Shown piece after piece: positions 8,717-10,824 of a stretch of 64,000 nt of DNA. The notes under the pieces were generated by a model, which ran no database searches, was not told the origin of the DNA, and worked only from the letters and a program-made list of their open reading frames with translations. Each line of letters starts with the position of its first letter. The first letter of the stretch is position 1. The translations under genes were made by a program, and so were the position numbers. The stretch comes from Haloarcula rubra (GTDB lineage: Archaea; Halobacteriota; Halobacteria; Halobacteriales; Haloarculaceae), in assembly GCF_019599465.1 (NCBI RefSeq), contig NZ_RKLR01000001.1, positions 372,001-436,000 of the forward strand. Direction: 5' to 3'.

Positions 8717-8748
8717 ACGACCGCCGACCCGGTCCGGAGTGCGAAGTC

Positions 8749-8757
8749 TTTAATAAT
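8749..8757 (+). promoter_or_regulatory. TATA box upstream of the fttA leader
   Basis: TTTAATAAT is the strongest TATA-like element in the gap before fttA. Transcription would begin near 8780, giving a 5' leader of about 140 bases. That is unusual among the leaderless genes around it. Confidence 0.5.
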
Positions 8758-8839
8758 TCGAGCGGGGTACTGACGTGTACAATCGGTTTTCCGGGCAGTT
8801 CTCCGCCTGGAGGTCGTTCACCGAACAACGGACAACTGT

Positions 8840-8923
8840 ATGACCGTACGAGACACTCGGTCCAGACCGACCCGCGACGGAGTACACGCCACCGGCAGGC
8901 CGCCCGCCCGTTCTACACTATGA
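8840..8923 (+). other. Possible 27-aa leader ORF overlapping the fttA start
   Basis: ATG at 8840 opens a 27-codon frame whose stop TGA (8921-8923) overlaps the fttA ATG (8920-8922) as ATGA. The peptide is Arg-rich and not acidic, so it may matter as a translated leader rather than as a protein. The layout would couple fttA translation to ribosomes finishing this frame. Whether it is translated is not known. Confidence 0.4.
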
Positions 8924-10824
8924 GCACGGTAGACAAGCAACTCGAAGAGGTACGAGCAACGATAGACGAAGAGGTTCCCAACCACATCTCCATCTCCGAC
9001 GTCACCTACGAGGGCCCGGAACTGGTCATCTACACCCGTGACCCGAAGGAGTTCGCCGCCGACGGCGACCTCGTCCGCCGTCTGGCGTCGAAACTCCGCA
9101 AGCGCATCACCGTCCGACCCGACCCGGACGTGCTGACGCGGCCGGAGACCGCCGAGGAGCGGATTCGAGAGATTATCCCCGACGACGCCGGCGTCAGCGG
9201 CCTCCAGTTCCTCGCCGACACCGGCGAGGTGCTCATCGAGGCCGAGAAACCCGGCCGCGTCATCGGCCGGCGCGGCGAGACGCTCCGGGAGATAACCAAA
9301 GCGGTCGGCTGGACGCCCGACGTGGTGCGCACGCCGCCCATCGAGTCGCCGACCGTCTCGAACGTCCGGGACTTCCTCACGCAGGAACGGGACGACCGGC
9401 GGGACATCCTCGAACGCGTCGGTCGGCAGATTCACCGCGACCCGATGTCCAGCGAGGAGTGGGTCCGGGTGACCACCCTCGGCGGGTGCCGAGAGGTCGG
9501 ACGTGCGGCGTACATCATCTCGACGGCCGACACGCGCATCCTCGTCGACTGCGGGGACAAACCCGGCGAGCGGACCGAACAGCCGTATCTCGACGTGCCC
9601 GAGGCCATCGGGTCCGGGGCGTCCTCGCTGGACGCCGTCGTCCTGACCCACGCCCATCTAGACCACGCGGCGCTGGTCCCCCTGCTGTTCGAACACGGCT
9701 ACGACGGCCCCATCTACTGTACGGAACCCACGCGGGACCTGCTGGGCCTGATGACGCTGGACTACATCGGCCGCGCCGACGCCGCCGGCCGCAAGCGCCC
9801 CTACGAGACCGAGATGGTCCGCGAGGCGGTCAAACACTGCATCCCGCTGGAGTACGGCGACGTCACCGACATCGCGCCCGACGTGAAACTCACGCTCCAC
9901 AACGCCGGCCACATCCTCGGGAGTTCCGTCGTCCACTTCCACATCGGCGACGGCCTCTACAACGTCGCCTTCTCCGGGGACATCCACTACGACAGCACAC
10001 GCCTGTTCGACGGCGCGGTCAACGAGTTCCCCCGCGTCGAGACGCTCGTCCTCGAGTCCACCTACGGCGGCCGCAACGACTACCAGACCGACCAGGACGA
10101 CTCCGAGCGAAAGCTCAAGCGCCTCGTCAGCGAGGCCGCCGACCGCGACGGGACCGTCTTCGTCCCGGTCCACGCCGTCGGCCGCGCACAGGAACTGATG
10201 GTCGTCCTCGAAGAGGCGATGCGCGAGGGCGACGTCCCCGAGATGCCGGTCTACCTCGACGGGATGATCTGGGAGGCCACGGCGGTCCACACCACCTATC
10301 CCGACTACCTCCGCAACGAGGTCAAGGACCGCATCCACGACGCCGACAGTAACCCGTTCCTCGCCGACCAGTTCACGCCCGTCGAGGACGGCGACGACCG
10401 CGAGGCCATCGCCGACCGTGACGAGGCGAGCGTGGTCCTCGCGCCGCCGAGTATGCTCACCGACGGCCCCGCCCGGACGTGGCTCGGACACCTCGCACCC
10501 GACGCCGACTCGACGCTGGCCTTCGTCGACTATCAGGCCCGCGGGACGCTCGGCAAGCGCATCCAGAAGGGAGCAGACGAGGTGCGCATCGACGGCGACA
10601 GCGTGCCGGTGAACATGCGCGTCGAGACGGTCGACGGCTTCTCCGGCCACGCCGACCGGCAGGGACTGGAGAACTTCGTGAAGACGATGCACCCCCGGCC
10701 CGAGAAGGTGCTCTGTGTCGACGGCGACGAGTCCGCCACACAGGACCTCTCCTCGGGGCTGTATCACGACTACAACGTGCGGACCTTCACGCCGGAGAAC
10801 CTCGAGACGTTCCGGTTCGTCTGA
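8920..10824 (+). CDS. fttA: Transcription termination factor FttA (aCPSF1), KH-beta-CASP ribonuclease
   Basis: A 634-aa protein of the archaeal CPSF73 family, which cleaves nascent RNA 5'-3' behind RNA polymerase to end transcription. Residues about 1-150 hold two KH domains ('RVIGRRGETLREITKAVGW' is the RNA-binding GxxG loop). A metallo-beta-lactamase domain follows, with H244-x-H246-x-D248-H249 ('THAHLDHAALVP'), 'NAGHILGS', 'AFSGDIHYDS' and 'FSGHADRQGL'. A beta-CASP domain is inserted between, and the C terminus 'RTFTPENLETFRFV' is typical. Length matches the family. The frame stays open far upstream, but MSTVDKQLEEVRATI is the usual beginning. Four stem-loops follow the gene. Confidence 0.96.
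   Translation: MSTVDKQLEEVRATIDEEVPNHISISDVTYEGPELVIYTRDPKEFAADGDLVRRLASKLRKRITVRPDPDVLTRPETAEERIREIIPDDAGVSGLQFLADTGEVLIEAEKPGRVIGRRGETLREITKAVGWTPDVVRTPPIESPTVSNVRDFLTQERDDRRDILERVGRQIHRDPMSSEEWVRVTTLGGCREVGRAAYIISTADTRILVDCGDKPGERTEQPYLDVPEAIGSGASSLDAVVLTHAHLDHAALVPLLFEHGYDGPIYCTEPTRDLLGLMTLDYIGRADAAGRKRPYETEMVREAVKHCIPLEYGDVTDIAPDVKLTLHNAGHILGSSVVHFHIGDGLYNVAFSGDIHYDSTRLFDGAVNEFPRVETLVLESTYGGRNDYQTDQDDSERKLKRLVSEAADRDGTVFVPVHAVGRAQELMVVLEEAMREGDVPEMPVYLDGMIWEATAVHTTYPDYLRNEVKDRIHDADSNPFLADQFTPVEDGDDREAIADRDEASVVLAPPSMLTDGPARTWLGHLAPDADSTLAFVDYQARGTLGKRIQKGADEVRIDGDSVPVNMRVETVDGFSGHADRQGLENFVKTMHPRPEKVLCVDGDESATQDLSSGLYHDYNVRTFTPENLETFRFV

Follow-up and report, generated by a model that had tools for sequence, protein, structure and literature searches.

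A conserved upstream ORF ending at the start of fttA in haloarchaea is probably part of a regulatory leader

Results

In haloarchaea the gene for the transcription termination factor FttA (aCPSF1) carries a leader that, from its pattern of conservation, looks regulatory rather than protein-coding. The conservation of a leader ORF upstream of fttA, on which an earlier note on this DNA had depended, holds across the class, since the same architecture was found in 116 of 147 loci. We judge it probable, at roughly 60%, that the leader couples fttA expression to translation of this upstream ORF (uORF), probably as a part of FttA self-regulation, and that it is convergent with the bacterial rhoL-rho arrangement.

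The window, a 64,000-nucleotide stretch of the Haloarcula rubra genome, holds the promoter, the inferred transcription start and the leader ORF in an intergenic segment (positions 8717-8919; Table 1). The TTTAATAAT TATA box (8749-8757), the 27-codon ORF and its junction with fttA all lie where the earlier note had placed them. Stop and start overlap as ATGA (8920-8923), as they do in termination-reinitiation pairs, and by inspection fttA has neither a TATA box of its own nor a Shine-Dalgarno motif just 5' of its start. The promoter consensus scores at least 13/18 in 138 of the 147 loci, and 2 of 200 shuffled sequences fold as well as the window's 5' hairpin. Two further features were seen in this segment: a 22-codon GTG ORF (8775-8843), which begins at or before the inferred start and whose TGA overlaps the ATG of the leader ORF, and, within the leader ORF, an inverted repeat (TCGGTC-CA-GACCGA, 8857-8870) that is kept as TCGGTC-CG-GGCCGA in sister species lacking the leader ORF start. 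As background, 72% of Haloferax volcanii transcripts are reported as leaderless (PMC4983044).

Table 1. Features of the fttA leader region in the window
Feature	Position	Strand	Basis or remark
fttA copy A promoter, upstream element and TATA box	8739..8756	+	15/18 match to class consensus TTGCGAAGGCTTTTATAA
Inferred transcription start	8778 (+/- ~3)	+	TATA spacing alone
Conserved 5'-terminal block, here ACAATCGGTTTTCCGG	8779..8794	+	class consensus AAGCGGGUUYUCC
Predicted 5' hairpin containing UUUU	8783..8824	+	folding, -18.2 kcal/mol, z -2.57
Leader ORF, 27 codons, ATG start	8840..8923	+	TGA overlaps fttA ATG
fttA / aCPSF1 copy A, 634 aa, beta-CASP motif C His to Asp (H601D)	8920..10824	+	

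The downstream gene was filed as an FttA/aCPSF1 member by profile and tree. Its protein scores 896.3 bits against TIGR03675 (aCPSF1; cut-off 580.2) over residues 9-633, carries the metallo-beta-lactamase motif HxHxDH as HAHLDH, and has its nearest match, at 97% protein identity, in the H. pellucida copy. Most of the 32 genomes of the genus have two full-length aCPSF1 genes. Duplicated copies have been described before in haloarchaea, in 56 of 366 genomes (PMC8653824). In the tree a 100/100 branch separates copy B from the window's copy (A), which clusters with the lone fttA gene found in other haloarchaea; the second copy of the window's own genome lies at G000:C35:205184-207103.

The ATGA overlap is uninformative when taken alone because the second codon of fttA is AGC, and haloarchaeal FttA nearly always starts with Met-Ser(AGY). 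The overlap thus comes automatically with the start of the protein and evidence from beyond the window was needed; this evidence is clearly positive. The comparison covered 147 copy A leaders, 29 of which belong to the window's genus; by the tool's own group labels the whole set spans 56 genera and 13 families. Left out were a repeat of L129 (L202), a locus whose start was not found (L188) and the named repeats L001-L005, L009 and L043; the named loci L006-L008, L010 and L015 were kept outside the counts, and in these the ORF from the first ATG ends at +17 (L006), -3 (L007 and L015), +4 (L008) or off the junction (L010). We defined a junction uORF as one with 15 codons or more that opens at the first ATG past the TATA-inferred start and ends at -15 to +26 of the fttA start, an end window chosen after inspection of the data. 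By this definition 116 of the 147 loci have one; elsewhere the first-ATG ORF ends early (20 loci), runs deep into fttA (5) or is in frame with it (1), and 5 leaders have no ATG. The median leader is 168 nt long, with a uORF of 35 codons (22-83) starting 65.5 nt past the inferred start. While 79 of the stops lie at +4, the other 37 are spread over eleven positions from -13 to +26 and several frames; the end point has therefore been kept through different frames.

Could such ORFs arise by chance in GC-rich DNA? Stops are rare in such DNA, and, as noted, the ATGA itself comes free with the Met-Ser start. With one row per genus, junction uORFs are found in 42.7 of the 56 genera (range 39-46), as compared with 7.7 (sd 2.4, max 16) in 200 dinucleotide shuffles and 6.6 (sd 2.3, max 12) when real segments from further upstream were swapped in, a control in which about 4.5 genera were skipped for having too little sequence. 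These controls contradict a chance origin for the class, not for the window taken alone, and leave it a very small probability. An in-frame N-terminal extension of FttA from the first ATG, seen in 1 of 147 loci, is expected in about 6 of 56 genera from the shuffles. When any ATG was allowed to open the ORF, the counts rose to 131 of 147 loci and 53 of 56 genera. By the same any-ATG rule 8 of 61 aCPSF1 genes outside the haloarchaea (methanogens and others) have a junction uORF. Of 28 paralogue B leaders, 1 has such a uORF in the 100 nt inspected.

The architecture is not uniform. In groups f5 and f17 short ORFs often come before the uORF or take its place. Fourteen later loci, counted apart, gave a junction uORF in 4 cases from the first ATG and in 6 from any ATG. 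Three of them, of the Marine Group IV type (f2; L292-L294), have the 5' block described below, as GCGGATTTTACCC, within a long leader that has no junction ORF; four (f9/f11) have no leader of this kind; and in one (f15) the promoter and the block are present and the uORF runs deep.

We then considered whether the uORF is a gene in its own right. Substitutions fall evenly over the three codon positions (312:293:308 in 83 within-genus pairs, which are not independent), and no purifying selection on uORF codons and no conserved codons were found in these pairs; this flat distribution led us to discard both a small-protein gene and a leader peptide that senses codons. The peptide is rich in arginine, as are the products of the other two frames, which it resembles in composition, and it differs from FttA (compare 8.2% D+E and 16.1% K+R in the uORF peptide with 17.7% and 10.2% in FttA). 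The first few residues are alike within some genera, which would fit a real small protein, but given the substitutions and the composition we regard that reading as highly improbable. Indels gave no net support for a preserved frame: of 297 single gaps in pairwise uORF alignments just 76 have a length divisible by three, although those between close Haloarcula sequences do (3 and 9 nt). From these comparisons, selection seems to hold the start, the openness and the end of the uORF; the act of translation seems to be kept, with the peptide product free to vary.

The other conserved part of the leader is a block spanning roughly +1 to +13. Nearly all leaders have it as AAGCGGGUUYUCC or something close to that, and in Haloarcula it reads CGGUUUUCCGG. 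Among 117 unique leaders UU-Y-U is invariant save for one base, and the two G residues flanking it are present in 114 and 115. The block is largely specific to fttA: across 59 genomes the pattern AAGCGGGTTYTCC gave 28 exact matches, of which 17 fall at fttA by position, as against 8 for the backward control. A wider regulon marked by the block was rejected, the 11 matches away from fttA being close to this control. Three other CGGTTTTCCGG sites in the window's own genome have no clear leader context. A CGGTTTTCCGG site away from fttA (L291, G000:C33:67644) lies upstream of a putative gene start that, from the first residues, we take to be that of a UMP-kinase gene.

Pairing around UUYU reaches 343, as compared with 281 (sd 10) when the arms were re-dealt among the 117 leaders with kinship ignored, and the third pair is G-C, C-G or G-U in 89 of them. 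The longer GCGGG...CCCGC pairing is weakly above shuffles (75 of 117; mean 58, max 75), and we thus claim no one structure. A known Rfam element was ruled out, as the leader has no match in Rfam 15 up to E = 1 and 11 further loci have none at gathering scores; a bacterial-type intrinsic terminator was looked for in the leader and none was found. In the paralogue B leaders (L160-L183) we observed a conserved hairpin, GCCGUNG-UUYU-NCGACGGC, about 50 nt 5' of the copy B start.

The block could also act as DNA, either as an initially transcribed promoter sequence or as the operator of a regulator, the uORF then being a separate translational device. Its nearly fixed distance from the TATA box is what such an element would show. 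On the other hand, the downstream arms vary in spacing, the pairing exceeds that of re-dealt arms, kinship being ignored in this comparison, and the copy B hairpin lies further from its TATA box than the copy A block does from its own. We consider a DNA element rather improbable.

The window's lineage stands out in both the protein and the leader. Its beta-CASP motif C reads VDGD in place of VHGD, a histidine that we take to be the motif C zinc ligand. Nine of the 29 Haloarcula copies A share this His-to-Asp change, and all nine fall within L081-L092. Of the 64 other copies A, 63 have HGDE; HGDE or HGDA is present in 30 of 30 copies B, and the copy B of the window's own genome keeps the histidine. 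We have therefore lowered any claim that the window's copy is an active nuclease. Within the genus copy A is the faster-evolving of the two (76.6% identity between G000, the window's genome, and G031, as compared with 89.7% for copy B), and the window's copy deviates at 40 of the 339 columns that are invariant in 56 reference copies, the motif C change being among them. Copy B of the genus deviates at 31-36 of these columns and shares most of the changes, so that the shared differences are older. In G018 the copy A gene (L179, G018:C1:3077772-3079678) is split into two adjacent pieces that lie in different frames, which looks like a frameshift. G006 and G015 lack a copy A match beside copy B, as does G028, which is 71% complete. 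Among the 29 Haloarcula copies A the uORF is missing in five and replaced in one more: of the sister species L086 and L088-L092, five have no leader ATG and the sixth has a different one, and the alignment has a gap across the ATGACCGTA start. The window's copy may be partly degenerate, and copy A, and the device with it, may be losing its role in the window's own lineage.

Discussion

The arrangement described above suggests the following sequence of events. Transcription would start near 8778, giving an mRNA whose 5' end is the conserved GG-UUYU-CC hairpin element. Ribosomes would initiate at the first AUG (8840), make a peptide that does not itself matter and terminate on the start codon of fttA, where they would re-initiate, so that fttA output would be tied to translation of the leader. 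Whenever ribosomes fall behind, FttA may in turn attach to the UUYU element at the 5' end and cleave the leader or terminate its transcription; translation would then protect the leader from FttA, and the level of FttA would be coupled to the very state that FttA senses.

The translational half of this scheme is the firmer one: the uORF likely supplies the ribosomes that start fttA. Re-initiation at the ATGA is supported because other H. volcanii pairs with this overlap are described as re-initiating, and 9 of 9 overlapping pairs tested there were strictly coupled (PMC6728339). Coupling might even be all there is, the uORF being an entry site that keeps fttA translation, through termination-reinitiation, at a fixed low level, and FttA itself having no role in regulating its leader. 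The same anatomy in the 116 loci would then be expected, as would the strict coupling in H. volcanii and the stability reported there for untranslated mRNA (PMC6728339). However, coupling alone leaves unexplained the near-invariant, largely fttA-specific 5' block and the recurrence of a UUYU hairpin in the paralogue B leader; we see it as a possible but unlikely full account.

FttA feedback through leader translation we put at about one in three. It is favoured because the KH domains of aCPSF1 bind U-tracts, the nuclease cutting downstream, according to work in Methanococcus maripaludis (PMC8716108), and a conserved UUYU stands at the 5' end of the leader. A structure of FttA with Spt and RNA polymerase led its authors to propose that FttA and the ribosome exclude each other (PMC11616081). 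It is disfavoured because the window's own copy has an altered nuclease motif, and strong translation-dependent termination is disfavoured in H. volcanii because transcripts with long untranslated parts are reported as stable there (PMC6728339). A class-wide haloarchaeal autoregulation, in which FttA would act on its own UUYU hairpin unless the uORF ribosomes keep up, is correspondingly tentative, and we would not give it even odds.

Among the closest known likenesses to a leader coupling fttA to uORF translation is E. coli rhoL-rho, in which a leader ORF also precedes the gene of a transcription termination factor. Rho regulates its own gene through attenuation in the rho leader (PMC6582626), and rhoL is described as involved in rho regulation (PMC9765468). 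E. coli rhoL has 33 codons (annotated 3966231-3966332; rho at 3966417) and ends 84 nt before rho, whereas the fttA uORF overlaps fttA; moreover, Rho-dependent termination has been measured in the former and the fttA leader is known here from sequence. Factors and sequences are unrelated, the likeness being one of function and position, and we assume convergence because Rho and FttA belong to different protein families. In bacteria the topAI uORF likewise links translation to premature, Rho-dependent termination (PMC12121999); it is reported to be regulated by ribosome stalling, whereas the fttA uORFs showed no conserved codons.

Among haloarchaeal systems, the termination-reinitiation pairs described in PMC6728339 share the 4-nt ATGA overlap and a downstream gene without promoter or Shine-Dalgarno motif; both of their genes are protein-coding, whereas the ORF upstream of fttA seems to be peptide-neutral and to act solely as a leader. 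Short uORFs in 150-250 nt leaders are also described in H. volcanii (PMC4983044). The 16 listed there by Babski et al., among which HVO_0874, the H. volcanii aCPSF1 gene (PMC4048286), does not figure, have 15-31 residues and a low pI, which those authors took as a sign of validity. The fttA uORFs (22-83 codons) would fail such a filter because they are basic. Our search of open-access journal papers found no account of a haloarchaeal fttA/aCPSF1 leader or of its autoregulation.

It has been put forward as a hypothesis (PMC11616081) that FttA watches over transcription-translation coupling in archaea in the manner of Rho, and the conserved leader on fttA offers a small native reporter for whether it does so. 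The uORF has apparently been kept by evolution for its translation and its end point, not for its peptide, and the Haloarcula species without the leader ATG are natural knock-outs for comparison. If the proposed regulation is true, FttA synthesis would measure transcription-translation coupling, and archaea would have in this leader an equivalent of rhoL-rho that arose independently.
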